From the NCBI GenBank assembly GCA_021604645.1, contig BQJJ01000014.1:1-64000 (forward strand): DNA of 64,000 nt, in the 5' to 3' direction. Both the position numbers and the translations under genes were made by a program. The notes beneath the pieces were generated by a model. That model was not told the DNA's origin, did no database searches, and saw only the letters and a list, made by a program, of their open reading frames with translations. Source of the stretch: Methyloligella sp. (GTDB lineage: Bacteria; Pseudomonadota; Alphaproteobacteria; Rhizobiales; HXMU1428-3). Shown here piece by piece: positions 50,589-59,704 of the stretch (its first letter is position 1; every line of letters begins with the position of its first letter).

Positions 50589-51755
50589 CTATCTAACTAA
50601 AATCGCATGATTATCCCACTGGAGATGACGGGCTGTTTCAAACCGTTTAGAAACTTGAGTGCTTAAGCTCGTTTGTTCAACTTGGCCTGTACCGCTTGTT
50701 TGTACAAATTCGCTCTTAGAATGTGTTCGGGCGACCCCGCATCCATCTATTAATTTTCGCGTCCCAATAAACGTCCGATTAACGGCATCCCAATAAGAAA
50801 TAAATCCGCCACGTGGATGCGATGCAGCGATAATCTCACCTGAATTGTCAACCGTAACGGAGCCAACATAGTTTTTCATATCACGAAGAACTTCTTTGGG
50901 CGCTGCAACCAATTTAATCTCGTGCCCTCGATCATGAAACCCAATGAGAGGAGGTTGGTTTGTCTTCGGCCCTTTAAATTGGCCTCCAAAAACAACTCGG
51001 TTTTTACCAGCAACAGTAAGATGCCGGATAGACAATTGATGAAGCAAGGCAGGCAGTGTTTGCTTCTCGATCAGGGTTCCAGTGCGGCAGTCAATATAAA
51101 CCAGAGACGGCTCCATCTCAGTTAAATTTAAAATCTGTCGTCCCGTCTCCGGGCTTGTCTCAAGCCCACCATTGGCAATAACAAGTGTAATGCCATCATC
51201 AAGCAAAGCCATATCATGTGGGCCAATACCAAAACTGGAAAATTCACCAATTTGCTTATAACCTGCCGTTGCATCACGAATGCCTATAACACCAACACCA
51301 TTTTCAAAATCATTCTCAGTGGTAAACAAGAGCTTCCCATTCGGAGAAAAAACACCATGACCATAAAAATGTCGATCCTCTTTTGCAAAAAAATGAAATG
51401 GTTCTCTCGCTCTGTTTGTTGAAAAAGCAACAGCAAACCGTCCAGGGCGGCGTGCAAATGCAACGACTTCTACAGGCTGGGTAATCCGTTCGCCAAGTCC
51501 ATGCGGCCGCACAGCAACATCATGACCACGTCCAGGTAAAGCAACAGATCTTAAATCACCTGCGCTCGTAAAAAGAGCAGCCGAATATGAAGCGCTTTCC
51601 CCATTTGGTAGATGACGCCGGGCAGCGGCAAAAAGTTCTTCTGTCTTCTCTGAAGCTTGTACAGTTGGAGATAAAATAAATGCTGGTAAAGCACCGGCAC
51701 TAACTGCCAAACCAGATCGGATAAAGTCTCTTCGATTAATCGCCATCTGATGCAT
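50589..51755 (-). CDS. DUF1513 protein of the imelysin locus
   Basis: The 388-residue protein begins with a Tat signal (NRRDFIRSGLAVSAGALPAF), so it is exported folded. The body has several VFSPNGKLLFTTENDFENGVGVIGI-like repeats, as in seven-bladed beta-propellers, which is the known shape of DUF1513. The family is found with imelysins and the di-heme oxidoreductase in iron-regulated loci; its activity is unknown. Its ATG overlaps the upstream imelysin by 20 bp, with TAGGA upstream. Confidence 0.9.
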   Translation of the reverse strand: MHQMAINRRDFIRSGLAVSAGALPAFILSPTVQASEKTEELFAAARRHLPNGESASYSAALFTSAGDLRSVALPGRGHDVAVRPHGLGERITQPVEVVAFARRPGRFAVAFSTNRAREPFHFFAKEDRHFYGHGVFSPNGKLLFTTENDFENGVGVIGIRDATAGYKQIGEFSSFGIGPHDMALLDDGITLVIANGGLETSPETGRQILNLTEMEPSLVYIDCRTGTLIEKQTLPALLHQLSIRHLTVAGKNRVVFGGQFKGPKTNQPPLIGFHDRGHEIKLVAAPKEVLRDMKNYVGSVTVDNSGEIIAASHPRGGFISYWDAVNRTFIGTRKLIDGCGVARTHSKSEFVQTSGTGQVEQTSLSTQVSKRFETARHLQWDNHAILVR

Positions 51756-52923
51756 TAAATCCTAAAGGCAAATCAGCTGCGAGCGCAAAATAACGAGCAA
51801 AGCCAACATTTAAATGTGATACGGTTTTAGCAATATCTTTGAGTTGGCTTTTCGCGTTTTCATCAGCTAATACATTAAAAATCAGAAATGATTTTTTCTC
51901 AAACCCGTCGAAAGAAGCATAAATCTTTTGAAACATTTTACGAACGTGGAATTGTAAATCGACGGGCGATTTATCTAAAAGAAGTTTAAAGCCACTTTTT
52001 CGGACAAAATGATCCATAGCTTCAATATTGGTTTTGATAACTCGCAAGGAAAGTCCCGAACGCCAAAAAGCAGCACGTTTTGGTTTCGTGGTTTTTCCCT
52101 TGCGCCCAAACAGCGGTTGAATTTTCAAATCATGAATCTTTTTCATCTCAACGGTAACGGATTGATAAAATTCTAGAATGACTTCCTTGCGGTTACGATA
52201 ATGTTCATTGGTGGCTGACGGGTTTAATAATTCTTTTATTGTCGCATTCTGCTCTTTCCAACCATTATAGACCTCTGCAGAAAGTTGCTGAATATTAGCT
52301 GTTAATCTAATGCCATAATCACAACGAAAACGACCCTGTTCGTCAGCAGTAAAAAGATTTTTAAAATCTTGTGTATTACCATTGCCAAAGAGAACGAACT
52401 CAAGTGCAGTTAACCCCTGCACCGCAATCGACTTTTCAGAAAATTTTTGAGGCGAGAGAGCTTGTCTGTCCTTAGCTTTTAGTAAACGCCGAACAGCTCT
52501 TAACCCACGCCCTTTATGGTCTGGCCAATAGGCAAGCTTCTCCAACCTATAATTTTTTACAATTGGCCCAAAATGAATATGTTCAATCGCTGCAAATGAA
52601 ATCACGGTGTTAGTAAAATTCTTTTTAACCAACTCAAATTGTACTGCGCTTTGGTCTGTACAAAATTGGATCATACTCGACTTCAATTTTTGGCTGTTCA
52701 AAAAGAGAGCTTTATAGCGAGGTAAAATATGTTTCGTATATGAGTTATAAGCTAACGTCTCCAAAACCTCATCACTAGTAAGCTCACTATCAGATTTTTG
52801 AATAGGTGTTTTTGTCTCTGTCGCTGCGCTTATAGTGAAAGGCATAAACATAAGACTGATAAAAAAAACAAATAAAAAAGAGCGAAAATTTTTAAAACTT
52901 AAAACAAGCACAATGTGCCTCAT
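51736..52923 (-). CDS. imelysin family protein (second copy)
   Basis: Imelysins (peptidase M75 fold) are periplasmic proteins linked to iron uptake. The 395-residue protein has a signal peptide (FLFVFFISLMFMPFTISA), an EHIHFGP segment and TALEFVLFG, the counterparts of the GxHxxE motif region. It belongs to the more diverged group that is encoded between the di-heme oxidoreductase and DUF1513. It is not the same type as the 56-57 kb imelysin. Confidence 0.88.
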   Translation of the reverse strand: MRHIVLVLSFKNFRSFLFVFFISLMFMPFTISAATETKTPIQKSDSELTSDEVLETLAYNSYTKHILPRYKALFLNSQKLKSSMIQFCTDQSAVQFELVKKNFTNTVISFAAIEHIHFGPIVKNYRLEKLAYWPDHKGRGLRAVRRLLKAKDRQALSPQKFSEKSIAVQGLTALEFVLFGNGNTQDFKNLFTADEQGRFRCDYGIRLTANIQQLSAEVYNGWKEQNATIKELLNPSATNEHYRNRKEVILEFYQSVTVEMKKIHDLKIQPLFGRKGKTTKPKRAAFWRSGLSLRVIKTNIEAMDHFVRKSGFKLLLDKSPVDLQFHVRKMFQKIYASFDGFEKKSFLIFNVLADENAKSQLKDIAKTVSHLNVGFARYFALAADLPLGFNASDGD

Positions 52924-52966: not shown

Positions 52967-54511
52967 TTAAAGCGATCGAACAAATTCCACCAGCCACATA
53001 CGTTCTGCTTTGCTAAGCTTGGAATAAGCCTCACGTGTCTTTAAAGCTTCACCACCGTGCCAAAGAATAGCTTCTTCAACAGAGCGTGCACGACCATCAT
53101 GTAGAAGGTTTTCATGACCATTAACTGTCTTGGTGAGACCAACACCCCATAAAGGCGGTGTTCGCCATTCAAAACCATCAGCTTTGCCCTCAGGTCGGTG
53201 GTCAGCAAGTCCTTCCCCCATATTATGTAATAACATATCCGTATAAGGCCAAATCAACTGCTGAGAGAGATGCTTATTTTTAGGTAGTGGTCCAGTTTTA
53301 AACGAAGGCCGATGGCAAGAGGCACACCCGATAGAATGAAACAAAGATTTGCCCTTTAAAACGCTCATCTTTTGCGGATTTCTTCTTTTCGGTACTGCTA
53401 AATTAGAGGCGTAAAAGGTGACCAAATCCAGCATTTGATCGGTGACTTCTACACCAGATTTTTTATCAACACCGTGTGGAGCTTTCAGACAGAAAGTTTG
53501 ATTAGGTGTGCAATCACCTGCTGCATTTTTATGCAGTGAAGTTGATAAGCCGATATCACCTGAAAATGCAGCTGCAGATTGTTCTTTGACAGAAGGAGAA
53601 CCAGCTTTCCAACCAAACCGACCAAGCATTATTTTTTGCTTTAAGTCAGACCAAACCATATTAGCCTTACCAGAAATTCCGTCACTATCCTGGTCATCAG
53701 GGTCTGCTAGTTTTAAAATTTCTTGAGCTGGAATTGCATCCAGCAAGCCAAGACCAATCATGGGAGGTGTAAGCCGGGGTGATATCAAAACATCCTTTTG
53801 CATCGGACCGTATTTGAGGTCAGTTGCTGAATAGTGTGGCCGTCTGAGTTGAACGGTCGTGCCATCATCTAGGGACACATCAAAATATTCATAGCGAATG
53901 TTCATATGACCTTCGCCTTGATGCCCCTGAATAGATAGATCTTGGAATTGTCCGCCATAAGTTGGTTCGGGAATAACAAGAGCACGGCTGCTTGAAATTA
54001 ATTTTTTTTGCTCAACAGTTTGCGGTGGAATTGAAAGGCGCAAAAATAGTGAGACTTGCGTGTCCTCAGGCCAATTAGCTTCGGGTGTGTGACCGCGCCC
54101 ATCTTTTAAATGGCACCGTTGACATGAGCGTGCATTAAATAAAGGTCCTAAGCCATCTGATGATTTTGTCGATGAAGGAGAGGAAACCCATAATTTTCTG
54201 AAAAGCCCATTGCCGACCTTAAAGAGAAGCTCTTTTTCAAATCCCATATTTCCAGATGAATGGGAAAAGGCATTTTTATTCTTGAAACTTTTCCGCGATG
54301 TAGCTTTGCCACCCGGTAAATGTTCACCAGGTTCAAATGGAGCAGGCACAGTTTCAGCTCTACTCTTTTGTGCCGCAATCGCTTTTTGAGCGAGTAACTC
54401 TATATCATTTAGCAGAAAGTTAGAGCAGATAAAAATAGTGGCTCCCGCAAAACTTGCGAGAGCCACCATTATCGAAACATTCAATTTTTTAATAAAGGTC
54501 ATAAAACCCAT
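52967..54511 (-). CDS. di-heme oxidoreductase (DHOR) family c-type cytochrome
   Basis: The 514-residue protein has an N-terminal signal/anchor helix and two c-type haem sites: ARSCQRCHLKDGRGH near residue 130 and SIGCASCHRPSFKTG near residue 395. It fits the family of putative thiol oxidoreductases / DHOR, found in imelysin loci, and could change the iron redox state in the periplasm (inference). ATG 54511 is preceded by AGGAACG. It is 43 bp from the imelysin gene downstream. Confidence 0.93.
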   Translation of the reverse strand: MGFMTFIKKLNVSIMVALASFAGATIFICSNFLLNDIELLAQKAIAAQKSRAETVPAPFEPGEHLPGGKATSRKSFKNKNAFSHSSGNMGFEKELLFKVGNGLFRKLWVSSPSSTKSSDGLGPLFNARSCQRCHLKDGRGHTPEANWPEDTQVSLFLRLSIPPQTVEQKKLISSSRALVIPEPTYGGQFQDLSIQGHQGEGHMNIRYEYFDVSLDDGTTVQLRRPHYSATDLKYGPMQKDVLISPRLTPPMIGLGLLDAIPAQEILKLADPDDQDSDGISGKANMVWSDLKQKIMLGRFGWKAGSPSVKEQSAAAFSGDIGLSTSLHKNAAGDCTPNQTFCLKAPHGVDKKSGVEVTDQMLDLVTFYASNLAVPKRRNPQKMSVLKGKSLFHSIGCASCHRPSFKTGPLPKNKHLSQQLIWPYTDMLLHNMGEGLADHRPEGKADGFEWRTPPLWGVGLTKTVNGHENLLHDGRARSVEEAILWHGGEALKTREAYSKLSKAERMWLVEFVRSL

Positions 54512-54555: not shown

Positions 54556-55851
54556 TTAAAAATCAATACGTGCACCAGCCATGATTGTGTAGAAGTCTTC
54601 TAGACCAGGTGCAGCAACTGCATTACCAGCTCCATCTACAACATCTAGATCAACTTCATAGTGACGGTAGCCAACGTAAAGTTGCATTTCAGCAGCATCA
54701 ATATGTTGAACGATACCAAAGCCAAATACTTGAGCTTCACTACCAGTTACTGAATGCATAGCATTACCAGTGATACCACTTGCATCATCAGTTGCAAAAA
54801 TGTCGTCAAACTGACCAAATTCACCGTAAATTGCTGTTTTACCTAGTGAATTATACTGTTTAAGAATACCACCTTTGAAGTAGTAGAAAGTAGCTTCATC
54901 ACGACCAGGTTCATTGTTGAAATCTCTTTGGCCAGCAGCAAAAGTGAAGTTCAAACCTGTTGGGTTATGAAGTACAGAAATAGAGCCGTTAAGTGTGTCT
55001 AAGCTTTCTTTAGCTCCACCATTATCGCCATCTCGGTTTTCTCTGTAAGCAATGCCAGCGGCAACTTCAAATTCACCTAGCTCTTTTTCATAAGCTAAAG
55101 CAACGTCCCACATGTCATCTTCACCCCAAGATGCTGAAAGAACAAAACCAGCAATCGTAGGTGTTTCATAGCGAATGATGTTAAATGTATCACCATTAAG
55201 GTTATCAAACACATCACCAATAGTTACACCAGAAAGGGCACCATTAGAAAGACGAAGTTGGAACCCACCAGCAACATCAGGAACTGCAGAATAAGCAACA
55301 TTTTCAGTACCAGAAAGATCCATTTCAGGTGCGCCATCAGAAGATTGGTCAGCAAAGCCCCAAGTCACACGACCATATTGCTCACTTTCAATGAACATGG
55401 CTGATTGAGCAAGTTCAATAGCTGTGTCGCCATCGTCGTTAGTTTGGTCAACACCATCAGAACCAGCAGCTACGATTTCAAGTTCAATCTCATAACCAGC
55501 TGTCCAGCCTGGACGGATTTTTGCTTCACCAGAAAAGTTAATAGCACCAAGGTCGTTACCATTACTTGTTACATAAGCGTCGCTCTCGTCGCCATCATCC
55601 CAAACAAGAATGTTTTGGTTCATCCAACCAGAAACTGTTAGAGATACTTTACGATTACCTTTACGAGCAGCAGTTGCTTCAAGAGTTGCAACACGCTCTT
55701 CAAGGTCAGCACAGCAATCACCACCAAGATCTGCCGCAAGTGCTGAAGAGCTAGACAAAGTCATCACTGAAAGACCAGCAAGTGCGCATAGTCCGGCAGC
55801 AGCATGTCCCCAAGCTTTGGATTGTCTAACCATAGTTTGTCTATAAGACAT
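54556..55851 (-). CDS. alphaproteobacterial porin (Porin_2 family)
   Basis: The 431-residue outer-membrane protein has a signal peptide ending SSALA, a short coiled coil with a CC pair (DCCADLEERVATLEATAARKG), then NRKVSLTVSGWMNQ, the start of the beta-barrel, and an aromatic C-terminal GARIDF. This is the Rhizobiales Porin_2 type. It sits inside the imelysin cluster, 44 bp before DHOR, so it may help bring the iron compound in. Strong GGGGGAA ribosome binding sequence precedes the ATG. Confidence 0.93.
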   Translation of the reverse strand: MSYRQTMVRQSKAWGHAAAGLCALAGLSVMTLSSSSALAADLGGDCCADLEERVATLEATAARKGNRKVSLTVSGWMNQNILVWDDGDESDAYVTSNGNDLGAINFSGEAKIRPGWTAGYEIELEIVAAGSDGVDQTNDDGDTAIELAQSAMFIESEQYGRVTWGFADQSSDGAPEMDLSGTENVAYSAVPDVAGGFQLRLSNGALSGVTIGDVFDNLNGDTFNIIRYETPTIAGFVLSASWGEDDMWDVALAYEKELGEFEVAAGIAYRENRDGDNGGAKESLDTLNGSISVLHNPTGLNFTFAAGQRDFNNEPGRDEATFYYFKGGILKQYNSLGKTAIYGEFGQFDDIFATDDASGITGNAMHSVTGSEAQVFGFGIVQHIDAAEMQLYVGYRHYEVDLDVVDGAGNAVAAPGLEDFYTIMAGARIDF

Positions 55852-56082: not shown

Positions 56083-57378
56083 TTATTCGGCTGAAACTTT
56101 TGAAGGATTATCAAGACTGTCTGATCCTTCAAATTCAATAGATTTCAAGTTCAAAGCAGCAACAGCTCGTTGAATAGCTTTGGTTTGATTTGTTAAACCA
56201 TCGATACTTGCTTGAACAACAGCGTTGCCTTCTTTATTCCCTTCGCCAATCATTTGGTCATAGGCTTCAACAGTTTCTGCACGCTTCACCATAGCTTTCA
56301 TAGCTGTGATCGTTGCAGCAAGCTTAGCTGTTAATTCTGCATCAGCTTTCGCATCACGCGCTTTCACCAAATCAGAAACACTTGCCCCTTTAACAACAGA
56401 GCCATCAACACGCTTGTAAGTGCCGAGGTAAACATTTTGAATGCCTAAAGCGTCATAGTAGTGAGAGTTATGAGTGTTATCTGAAAAGCAATCATGCTCT
56501 TCTTCTGGGTCGTGTAAAATCAAACCAAGTTTCATGCGCTCTCCAGCAAGCTCACCATATGAAAGTGAACCAAGACCAGTGAAAATGGTTGAAAGTACTT
56601 CATTGTCACTCTTAGCTAAAAGGCCAGTACGAGCAGCACCTTTCTCACCCCATTGAGCAACCATCCATTTTAGATCATCAATCAAAAGATTTGTTGCAGC
56701 AGTTAAGTAAGCAATACGGCGGTCACAATTGCCATTTGTACAATTTTTCAGATCGAAATCAGTGTGAGGGCGATTACCAGCACCTTTCTTAGTGCCGTTT
56801 AAATCTTGTCCCCAAAGTAAAAATTCAATGGCGTGATAACCTGTTGCCACATTAGCTTCAACATCACCAGCTTCATGTAATGTTTCAGAAATCAGCTCTT
56901 TGCTGATCTTAGTTGTATCAACTGTCTTACCACCAATTTTGATAGATTTAGCTGAAACAATATTCGCAACATAAAGGTCATTTTCATCAGATTCTGTTCC
57001 ATAATCTTTAGAAACGTAATCAATCAAACCTTCGTCTAGTGGCCAGGCATTCACTTTACCTTCCCAGTCATCCACAATCGCATTCCCAAAACGGTATGCT
57101 TCAGATTGTTGGTAAGGAACACGTGAAGCAATCCAGCTCAGACGAGCAGCTTTTAGTGTTTCAGCACTTGGAGCTTTAATGAATGCGTCAATTTTTGCTT
57201 TTAACGCTTCAGCTGTTTTTAAAGAATCTTCATATGTTGCCTGAGCAATATTCGAATAGGTTGTGACGATATCTTTTACTTTTGGTTCAGCCGCTACTAC
57301 AGCACCAGAACCAACAAAGCTTGAAAAGAGTGCAACAGCAACTCCTGTAGAAGCTTTTTGAAACAGTGTCTTTGTCAT
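56083..57378 (-). CDS. imelysin family iron-uptake protein
   Basis: The 431-residue protein has a signal peptide (VAVALFSSFVGSGAVVAA) and the M75 motif GYHAIEFLLWGQD (GxHxxE), with NRPHTDF and the LSYGELAGERMKLGLILHDPEEEHDCFSDNTHNSHYYD segment that is typical of the IrpA-like group. It is periplasmic and probably takes part in iron acquisition. The gene of the QHxxCPALxAC family ends 38 bp upstream, so the two are likely co-transcribed. Confidence 0.93.
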   Translation of the reverse strand: MTKTLFQKASTGVAVALFSSFVGSGAVVAAEPKVKDIVTTYSNIAQATYEDSLKTAEALKAKIDAFIKAPSAETLKAARLSWIASRVPYQQSEAYRFGNAIVDDWEGKVNAWPLDEGLIDYVSKDYGTESDENDLYVANIVSAKSIKIGGKTVDTTKISKELISETLHEAGDVEANVATGYHAIEFLLWGQDLNGTKKGAGNRPHTDFDLKNCTNGNCDRRIAYLTAATNLLIDDLKWMVAQWGEKGAARTGLLAKSDNEVLSTIFTGLGSLSYGELAGERMKLGLILHDPEEEHDCFSDNTHNSHYYDALGIQNVYLGTYKRVDGSVVKGASVSDLVKARDAKADAELTAKLAATITAMKAMVKRAETVEAYDQMIGEGNKEGNAVVQASIDGLTNQTKAIQRAVAALNLKSIEFEGSDSLDNPSKVSAE

Positions 57379-57416: not shown

Positions 57417-58013
57417 CTAATTGGGAAAATGAGTTGGCTCAGCTGCCAGATGGGTGAGGGGCTGAGCAATTGAGTTAATTTGTAAAATCTGGCCTGCATC
57501 AACAAGGCCATCTGCAAAGTCTTGGGCTGCCAGTTGAGGTAAATCTATTTCGGCAGCTTCTGTAATGGCATAGACACATGCCTTTAGGGCCGGACATTCA
57601 CTGTGCTGGCAAGCGGCAATCATAGAAATAGCCACCACTTCATCATAACTAAACCCGGGCGTTACAATTTTTTCGATTTTGATCGGGCGCTTGGAAATTT
57701 TGTCCAAAGCATTAACCCAACTACCGAGTTTAGTTGATAGAACCAAGCCATCTTTCAAGCCAAAAGCTTGGATATATTGCCGGCTACACACATCGAAAAA
57801 CCGGGTATCATTTGTTTGAACGCCGCGCACCCAACACCGAAAGCCAAGTCCAACCAAACGTTCAGGTGATGCATTTAGCGTTATTGAAGTACCGCATCTT
57901 TTAACTGGCACATTTACAGGCCAATCAGATGTTAAGTCAGAAGATAAATCTTTATCCATTGATTGATGCTCATTTAAAAGAGCATCTTGAGAAACTTTAT
58001 TTTTCAGTCGCAT
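57417..58013 (-). CDS. QHxxCPALxAC family protein (paralogue of 58947-59444)
   Basis: I do not recognise this 198-residue protein as a named family. It has SPERLVGLGFRCWVRGVQTND and, in the second half, MIAACQHSECPALKACVYAITEAAE, both also present in the divergent paralogue at 58947. The His-x3-Cys-x5-Cys spacing suggests a metal site or redox pair. No signal peptide or membrane helix is seen. It lies directly upstream of the imelysin gene, so an iron-related role is likely (inference). Confidence 0.75.
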   Translation of the reverse strand: MRLKNKVSQDALLNEHQSMDKDLSSDLTSDWPVNVPVKRCGTSITLNASPERLVGLGFRCWVRGVQTNDTRFFDVCSRQYIQAFGLKDGLVLSTKLGSWVNALDKISKRPIKIEKIVTPGFSYDEVVAISMIAACQHSECPALKACVYAITEAAEIDLPQLAAQDFADGLVDAGQILQINSIAQPLTHLAAEPTHFPN

Positions 58014-58153
58014 TATAAGGTCACCATAAAATCAAAAATTTCAGGTAGACGCTAAGAAGATGGAAGGTCGCTTATATATGGATAGGATCGAATTAAGTAC
58101 AAAGATCAAAAACAACAACAAACCAAAATCATACGTCCAATAAGTTGGTTTTA

Positions 58154-58224
58154 AATAACGCGGTTGCTGGTAGGCAATCTGAAACGTTATTCAAAAATGA
58201 TTGCTCGTAGGCAATCTGGAGCGC
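58154..58224 (+). repeat. two R2 units with a changed outer stem
   Basis: The first unit has an outer stem AATAACG/CGTTATT of 7 bp around GGTTGC...GGCAATC, in place of the common GCGC. The second (58198-58224) is a shorter GATTGC/GGCAATC unit. They lie between the small ORF at 58231 and the 57417 gene. Confidence 0.82.
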
Positions 58225-58230
58225 AAAAAC

Positions 58231-58500
58231 TTAACTGCTGTTATTTGAAGGTGAACGGTCAGATCGAAGCCATGAAACAAGAGTTGCCTCTCGAAGATGT
58301 AAACCCTGATTGATAAATCCACGTTTGCTAAACCCAAAGAGGTCTTCATTCAAAGCTGATTTAATATGATGTAATGAAAAAGAAAGCTCTGAGAGTAGAG
58401 CGAGAGGTCGAAGGTCGACGCTTTTAAGATTAGTAAAGTTGAGACTAGTAAAGTTAAGACCAGAAAACGCACCCCTGGTAAGGTGATAAAATCTAAACAT
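58231..58500 (-). CDS. possible small ORF with duplicated leader
   Basis: An 89-residue ORF starting MFRFYHLTRG, preceded by TTGGAGAGAAAA, the same leader as the plus-strand ORF at 58777. No family is recognised and composition is not decisive. It is listed because of the exact match of the start region to its divergent counterpart, but it could be a decayed or non-coding leader of the 57417 gene. Confidence 0.4.
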   Translation of the reverse strand: MFRFYHLTRGAFSGLNFTSLNFTNLKSVDLRPLALLSELSFSLHHIKSALNEDLFGFSKRGFINQGLHLREATLVSWLRSDRSPSNNSS

Positions 58501-58577
58501 TTTTCTCTCCAATAATCAGGGTTCAAGGCCCTGGTATTAGACTAAATTAGCGCCCCAATGACTGCGACACTAGCTAG

Positions 58578-58606
58578 ACATAATCAAATATTCCAAACAC
58601 AGTCAA
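58578..58606 (-). promoter_or_regulatory. candidate promoter, minus strand
   Basis: On the minus strand TTGACT, 17 bp, TTATGT. It would drive the small ORF at 58500 and the downstream 57417-imelysin genes. The -10 match is imperfect. Confidence 0.4.
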
Positions 58607-58669
58607 ATAAAAAATCAATAAAACCAGCAGTTTAGAATTAATATAAATTGAAAGTAAAATTTGTAAAAC

Positions 58670-58698
58670 TTGACAAATCGAAAATGCTAAGTTGATAT
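58670..58698 (+). promoter_or_regulatory. sigma-70 type promoter
   Basis: TTGACA, a 17-bp spacer and TGATAT match the -35 and -10 boxes well. It points to the small ORF at 58777 and the 58947 gene. Confidence 0.65.
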
Positions 58699-58708
58699 GA
58701 ACACCGAA

Positions 58709-58736
58709 ATATAACCCGCCAAAAGAGGGGTTATAT
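58709..58736 (+). other. hairpin in the leader of the 58777 ORF
   Basis: ATATAACCC and GGGTTATAT form a 9-bp stem around an A-rich loop, about 10 bases after the promoter's -10 box. There is no T-run, so it is a leader or stabilising structure rather than a terminator. Confidence 0.55.
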
Positions 58737-58776
58737 CTGATTACGGGACCTTGAATCTCGTCTATTGGAGAGAAAA

Positions 58777-58950
58777 ATGTTTAACGAATTTTTGCAACGC
58801 ACACCCAAGGTGCGTTCGGTAATCTTGCATTCAATTTTGTTCTTAAAACAATTATTTGAATGCATAATTAGGCAATTCCACTCACTAACCAAGGCCTATA
58901 TGGCTACATCATTTAGCATGTCTCTCAGTATAGCGAGGGCAAGCAGATGA
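58777..58950 (+). CDS. small ORF coupled to QHxxCPALxAC gene
   Basis: A 57-residue ORF (MFNEFLQRTPKVRSVILHS...) with GGAGAG seven bases before ATG and a stop codon that overlaps the next ATG (ATGA at 58947). No family is recognised; the middle is hydrophobic but not a clear membrane helix. The coupling and the ribosome binding site support translation. It may serve as a leader peptide for the next gene. Confidence 0.55.
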   Translation: MFNEFLQRTPKVRSVILHSILFLKQLFECIIRQFHSLTKAYMATSFSMSLSIARASR

Positions 58951-59444
58951 GTGTTGAAGTAACCCATCATGTTTTAGACAAAATAAATCAGGAAAGAACA
59001 CCGATTTATTTTGCTAAAAAGCCTCAAATTAAAAAATCTCCCGAAGAATTAGTCGGCTTAGGTTTTCGTTTCTGGATGGCTGGTTATCAAAATAATGATT
59101 TCGAATTCTGGAAAAAAACCTGGGATCATTTTAACCAAACAATCGGCACATCAGCAGCAAGGACAACAGTTTCAGAGCTTGCCTCTTGGGCCCAGACTGT
59201 ACAATCATCAGCACTTAGAGACATTGAAGTCTCACTAACCGAACAAGAACAATTCGGCAGAGACGAACGTATGGCCATCACCATGGTGGCAGCTGGACAG
59301 CACAATGCTTGCCCGGCCCTTCAAGCCTGCGCTGGGGCATTACTTGGTGCGGTCGAAGTTGAAAATGTCGTTGAAGCATCAACCAATTTTGGTCATCAAT
59401 TACTTGAAAAAAAATTACTACTCACTGATATAAAAAAACTATAG
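58947..59444 (+). CDS. QHxxCPALxAC family protein (paralogue of 57417-58013)
   Basis: This 165-residue protein shares SPEELVGLGFRFWMAGYQNND, a Trp-containing SWAQ/ SWVN segment, and MVAAGQHNACPALQACAGALLGAVE with the divergent 57417 gene. The order of conserved blocks is the same over most of the length, so the two are paralogues. No signal peptide or membrane helix is seen. It could be a metal-binding cytoplasmic factor or a regulator of the imelysin locus; neither can be shown here. Translation is coupled to the small ORF upstream. Confidence 0.75.
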   Translation: MSVEVTHHVLDKINQERTPIYFAKKPQIKKSPEELVGLGFRFWMAGYQNNDFEFWKKTWDHFNQTIGTSAARTTVSELASWAQTVQSSALRDIEVSLTEQEQFGRDERMAITMVAAGQHNACPALQACAGALLGAVEVENVVEASTNFGHQLLEKKLLLTDIKKL

Positions 59445-59475: not shown

Positions 59476-59704
59476 ACGAAGAAAGAGCCCTGCCTTTTCG
59501 GCAGGGGGACATGACACCATGGGTGTCCGGTGCACCAGAGCAGCCCGGAAGGAGTGAAGCGAGTACGGATAAGCTGATCGAAAAGAATGCCTCCCTTCGT
59601 AGGCAGATAGTGCGGATGCGTAGTGGGCATCTGAAGCACAGCGTAGGTAAACAGTGCGGATGCGTTGTGGGCATCTGAAGCACAGCAAAAAGCCTCGAGA
59701 GAGA
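59476..59704 (+). repeat. R1 structured repeat, copy 13, composite with R3 and R2
   Basis: Hairpin A is CCTGCC/GGCAGG, B is GACACCATGGGTGTC. Hairpin C (GGTGCACC) is interrupted by module R3 (59539-59580). In the place of hairpin D stand two tandem R2 units (TGCGGATGC...GCATCTGAAGCACAGC). The tail is reduced to CCTCGAGAGAGA. Confidence 0.85.
59539..59580 (+). repeat. R3 module nested in R1, copy a
   Basis: GAGCAGCCCGGAAGGAGTGA, then GCGAGTACGGATAAGCTGATCG. It shares its order and most bases with the module at 62812, and both are placed in the loop of hairpin C of an R1 copy. Confidence 0.8.

Follow-up and report, generated by a model that had tools for sequence, protein, structure and literature searches.

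In eukaryotes the IRE, which works with IRP/aconitase, is a short hairpin found in the 5' leaders of numerous iron genes and carries a CAGUGN loop with a bulged C. The leader element described here is likewise a short hairpin before many iron genes; however, its loop is C(C/U)UUGA(A/C) rather than CAGUGN and it overlaps the ribosome-binding site, features that set it apart from the IRE. In rhizobia, Irr acts via ICE sites as either an activator or a repressor, according to the available text of PMC3413700 and PMC7762939. Our locus resembles this Irr/ICE regulon in bacterial order, in the kinds of iron gene involved and in having an ICE-like palindrome upstream, but the regulon is one of a transcription factor on DNA, and a leader RNA would be an extra layer that the available text of these two papers does not mention. 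For Pelagibacter, the available text of PMC2704228 and PMC2864753 places a candidate structured intergenic region directly before sfuC (= fbpA) and proposes translational control. This too is an alphaproteobacterium with a structured candidate before a ferric-binding protein gene, although there it is a ranked intergenic region with no motif published in that text, and R1, our covariance model of the element, found nothing in 286 genomes outside Hyphomicrobiales. Finally, one of the two genes at our locus, gene A, lies in a locus of the EfeUOB/imelysin-DHOR kind (PMC3143127); the family to which it belongs, here called F, is not named as a component in the available text of that paper, and it occurs also with FbpAB and with Bfd/Bfr. 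Apart from the Pelagibacter sfuC hint we found no published version of the element in a literature coverage that was incomplete, and its novelty is provisional. It looks like an undescribed control element of the iron regulon.

The A/B locus and its paired leaders

The window, by which we mean the whole stretch of 64,000 nucleotides that was analysed, contains genes A and B with the features collected in Table 1. As a preliminary description had it, these are two divergent genes with shared sequence blocks: both open reading frames are present, the blocks align as described, and a search of the genome with B returned A (E = 7e-21, 35% identity over 128 aa) with no third copy of the family. Its placement of A directly upstream of an imelysin gene also holds, across a gap of 38 nt, and the same locus contains DHOR and a second imelysin-like gene. 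Gene B has no linked iron gene besides the A locus, and it is B's own leader that points to B as a member of the iron regulon. The porin-like gene of the locus had no Pfam match and is found in the same arrangement in three other genomes of the genus (cluster c20).

The intergenic region between A and B contains a 48-nt inverted repeat with 79% complementarity, and so A and B carry the same, near-identical leader, a feature absent from the preliminary description. Each copy of the leader ends in ATTGGAGAGAAAAATG, where a small ORF begins. Before uORF-A, the element consists of the hairpin CAGGG-CCUUGAA-CCCUG and an outer helix, CUAAU/AUUGG, that overlaps the ribosome-binding site; before uORF-B the hairpin is CGGGA-CCUUGAA-UCUCG and the outer helix CUGAU/AUUGG. 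The stretches HLTRGAF, SELS and HIKSA of uORF-A are recognisable across species of the genus. To judge by its sequence, uORF-A might encode a real small protein. Repeats were seen on either side as well: two 23-nt direct repeats TTGCTGGTAGGCAATCTGAAACG lie at 58164-58223, between uORF-A and gene A, the second of them containing a terminator-like hairpin on the minus strand, and two imperfect copies of GTGCGGATGCGT(A/T)GTGGGCATCTGAAGCACAGC were spotted by eye at 59590-59690, between B and an aldehyde dehydrogenase-like gene.

Table 1. Features of the A/B locus, with positions counted from the first letter of the window
Feature	Position	Strand	Remarks
Second imelysin-like gene	51736..52923	-	Imelysin locus
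DHOR di-haem oxidoreductase	52967..54511	-	PF06537
Porin-like gene	54556..55851	-	Called from its own sequence; between imelysin and DHOR
Imelysin (Peptidase_M75)	56083..57378	-	Downstream of A; PF09375, E = 1e-86
Gene A	57417..58013	-	198 aa; uncharacterised family member; first gene before imelysin; C-terminus ...HFPN
uORF-A	58231..58500	-	89 aa; begins directly 3' of element; stops 217 nt before gene A
Leader RNA element before uORF-A	58503..58544	-	R1 match, 55.3 bits, E 3.7e-8
Irr-box (ICE)-like palindrome	58631..58647		TTTAGAATTAATATAAA; 2 mismatches; midway between A and B leaders
Leader RNA element before uORF-B	58733..58774	+	R1 match, 54.6 bits, E 5.1e-8
uORF-B	58777..58950	+	57 aa; begins directly 3' of element; stop overlaps gene B start (ATGA)
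Gene B	58947..59444	+	165 aa; divergent paralogue of A

Structure of the element and the sites in its promoters

The consensus is a 5-bp hairpin within a leader of ~40 nt, enclosed by an outer helix in which YYRAU pairs with AUUGG, part of the ribosome-binding site AUUGGAG of the next ORF. In DNA letters, the F loci that were scanned share a CCTTGAA-loop hairpin followed at a fixed distance by ATTGGAG, a pattern kept in the genus and the order. Among 49 distinct copies, 95.1% of cells were paired in the two-helix structure; pairing was ~51% after a one-column slide and at most 52% in the slid versions, and two-sided changes numbered 37 against 7.9 +/- 2.2 after shuffling. A second alignment of 21 copies showed the same pattern (92.9% paired, slid versions at most 57%), its independence being partial as a few rows (e.g. 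L065 and L115) are identical to, or close kin of, training copies. Two-sided changes occur at four of the five pairs of the inner stem. Variation in the outer helix is mostly one-sided, C-G/U-G and G-U/A-U, because the ribosome-binding site is fixed, and support for this helix is therefore weaker than for the hairpin. RNAalifold alone predicted the inner stem and not the outer helix, and most folds of single copies contained both helices, at folding energies that were not unusual. No covariance model in Rfam matched at the element. A covarying structure that sits upstream of a start codon, overlaps the ribosome-binding site and recurs before many unlinked operons is what one expects of a cis-regulatory leader RNA, and in these features the element is a candidate of this kind.

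The 5-bp stem and 7-nt loop were also considered as a mimic of the tRNA anticodon loop. In tRNAs that loop has U33; the element mostly has C at this position, and the candidate was set aside.

Upstream of the leaders there is a second kind of site. With TTTAGAA-N3-TTCTAAA as the Irr-box (ICE) consensus and at most 2 mismatches allowed, 33 of 66 leaders have such a site upstream, where shuffles gave 0.11; most of these sites lie 116-136 nt ahead of the hairpin loop. With an ICE-like palindrome in its promoter, the A/B region would by sequence belong to an Irr (ICE) regulon. A further Irr-box-like palindrome, TTTAAAATCATTCTAAA (1 mismatch), lies at 1827-1843, at the far end of the window.

Such sites bear on the question of whether the element itself is a DNA operator, a palindrome bound as DNA by an iron-responsive transcription factor, and not a structured RNA. 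It would be logical to consider this for an inverted repeat beside iron genes, the more so with an Irr-box-like DNA site in the same promoters. However, that site means that a separate operator-like sequence is already present upstream, and the element lies at a nearly constant distance from the ribosome-binding site and the start codon, has an asymmetric and nearly invariant loop, and tolerates G-U pairs in both helices (UG at columns 6-35 in 24 of 49 copies, GU at columns 7-34 in 36 of 49). We regard an operator as quite unlikely.

Distribution of the element and candidate readers

When 121 relatives were scanned genome-wide for the pattern, with genes left out of account, 44 sites came up; the reversed control had 1. 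Where the downstream gene was read it was F, fbpA, imelysin or another iron gene, the exception being one poor match (G012). In the genome to which the window belongs, R1 returned four copies, those of A, B, fbpA (contig 11) and bfd-bfr (contig 8, E = 0.012). In the order sample, with a cut-off of E up to 0.01, it returned 89 copies in 58 of 219 genomes, and all 89 precede iron genes or F, where DUF2325, not a known iron family, is counted as iron-linked because it also adjoins F in L067. The next gene was F at 34 copies, fbpA at 32 (13 of them with F behind fbpA), imelysin at 12 and bfd at 6, some of the fbpA and bfd assignments having been made by recognisable protein sequence or gene clusters and not by a separate Pfam scan. 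Single copies stood before feoAB, a TonB receptor, cupredoxin-FTR1, DUF2325 and an IscA-type gene. Outside the order no R1 copy was found in 286 genomes, in a search whose filters lose weak matches.

Two kinds of neighbour deserve a remark of their own. Proteins with a C-terminal DUF2325 are encoded next to F (L067:7668-9098) and behind the leader element (L236:891-2114), and this family may be part of the iron regulon too. A second, more distant F-type protein is encoded behind the element at L238:1232-1825 and in L251, genomes that also have an fbpA-linked F.

It also should be considered that the hairpin might not be an iron-state switch at all, and instead serve as the target of a small RNA that acts in trans and is complementary to CCUUGAA, or more generally enhance translation or stabilise the mRNA. 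A 7-nt loop that hardly varies, beside the ribosome-binding site, is indeed a usual layout of a small-RNA target; a general enhancer, by contrast, fits poorly with the restriction of the element to iron genes. Taken together we consider these possibilities unlikely.

Another thought is that F itself, hence A and B, is an RNA-binding regulator that reads the element. The two co-occur in 43 of the 58 element-bearing genomes (odds ratio 10.7, p = 1e-12, without kinship correction), and F genes carry the element, as the genes of autoregulators do. The other 15 genomes have the element and no detectable F, however, which lowers the idea of an obligatory reader and makes F a weak candidate; moreover, most F proteins are acidic, and F is also present in genomes from other orders, whereas the R1 search of 286 genomes outside the order returned no copy of the element. 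F as reader is in our view very unlikely.

Family F and a proposed explanation

Iron genes accompany F elsewhere, as had been anticipated from this one locus. In the order sample imelysin lies within 1 kb of 34 of 86 F loci. Some loci have F flanked by an FbpA-type ferric binding protein and a permease of the FbpB type, L151 has the order fbpA-fbpB-F-imelysin, and at some loci F adjoins bfd and bfr (F-bfd-bfr in L138); others, e.g. L072 and L130, have no iron gene near F. The preliminary description had proposed a pair of intracellular iron or haem sensors or handlers linked to imelysin-DHOR uptake. Its iron link is upheld, and "intracellular" is plausible because no signal peptide is apparent when the A and B sequences are read, but the link is not specific to imelysin-DHOR, since FbpA/FbpB and Bfd/Bfr contexts occur.

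That the family could not be placed remains the case after profile searches. A and B gave nothing above cut-off in Pfam, NCBIfam and PHROG (chance-level matches only) and no sequence match among PDB chains. Ten distant relatives were likewise unmatched in Pfam and NCBIfam, a 28-sequence profile in PDB and two relatives in a plasmid collection. Neither A nor B matched the Fur/Irr or Rrf2/RirA regulator profiles, nor Fer2_BFD, the profile of Bfd, which a Bfd neighbour of an F gene does match. F is present in 30 of 61 relatives, in 77 of 219 genomes of the order (Hyphomicrobiales; about one third) and in 36 of 289 genomes of the class, own genome counted. A and B are members of an uncharacterised family that is helical by prediction, mostly acidic and probably cytosolic. 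Two distant F proteins are also encoded divergently at L084:6566-7786, in a genome of the same class but of a different order, and the divergent arrangement may thus recur.

An invariant His and two Cys had been taken to suggest a metal or haem site. In the F alignment four residues are invariant, namely R of FRxW, E of DE, Q of QH and one L; the QHxxCPALxAC motif is essentially confined to one clade of the tree (29 of 55 sequences), which includes A, B and most FbpA-linked members and of which some members lack the motif. Many F members have P-x2-C-x3-C-R-D-E-C ahead of the IAAxQH stretch, and this more widespread set of cysteines, C-x3-CRDEC, is absent from A and B. The clade-specific His/Cys set was therefore rejected as a metal site of the family. 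AlphaFold models (seven sequences as input) were all-helical and of low confidence (pLDDT 51 and 48), so they provide no fold evidence bearing on such a site. A C-terminal His is found in 35 of 65 F members against 8 of 460 neighbouring proteins (without kinship correction), and a C-terminal Asn in another 10 of 65; the gene B protein has no C-terminal His and the gene A protein ends in Asn.

These features could also belong to a regulator or redox partner of iron uptake proteins (e.g. a ferric reductase helper or Bfd-like electron donor) rather than to an iron carrier. Such a role would suit the positions that F takes, between FbpA and FbpB, within the imelysin-DHOR locus and next to Bfd/Bfr, and it would suit the Cys-rich motif of most relatives. 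Against this, A and B are without the C-x3-CRDEC cysteines, and there was no match to a ferredoxin or reductase profile, which leaves a partner role for A and B doubtful. From genomic context and residues, A and B most likely handle iron in the cytosol.

The explanation we favour, and consider rather likely, is that an iron-regulon-wide leader RNA acts on translation initiation and that A and B are cytosolic iron-handling members of the same regulon. The single Irr-box-like site probably lies between the start points of the A and B transcripts. Transcription would be set by Irr, and the leader would then tune translation initiation, the hairpin and outer helix masking part of the ribosome-binding site, either as an RNA switch or as a protein-binding hairpin, and keeping initiation low until there is a change in iron state. 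The element may act directly on fbpA and several bfd genes. For A and B its action would pass through the leader ORF: for B via the stop-start overlap with uORF-B, and for A and the imelysin operon via translation or Rho polarity, an indirect coupling because the leader ORF ends well short of gene A. Less certain than the role of the leader is that F proteins handle iron inside the cell, perhaps through Cys/His ligands and the C-terminal His; they may pass on or buffer iron from imelysin/DHOR or FbpAB, or support its release from bacterioferritin.

A bolder version, which we hold to be possible rather than probable, is a regulon-wide Hyphomicrobiales counterpart of the eukaryotic IRE system, in which a CCUUGAA leader hairpin at the ribosome-binding sites of iron uptake, iron release, Fe-S and F genes would be read by an iron-sensing protein or ligand and stacked on Irr control, with F as a novel class of proteins that handle iron in the cytosol. 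For rhizobia and their relatives, accounts of iron control have so far dealt mainly with transcription, through Irr and RirA. With a leader RNA before fbpA, imelysin, bfd, feoAB and FTR1, the whole regulon would gain a translational level of control. The element also offers a way into the function of a family that lacks annotation and is encoded in roughly one third of the sampled genomes of the order.
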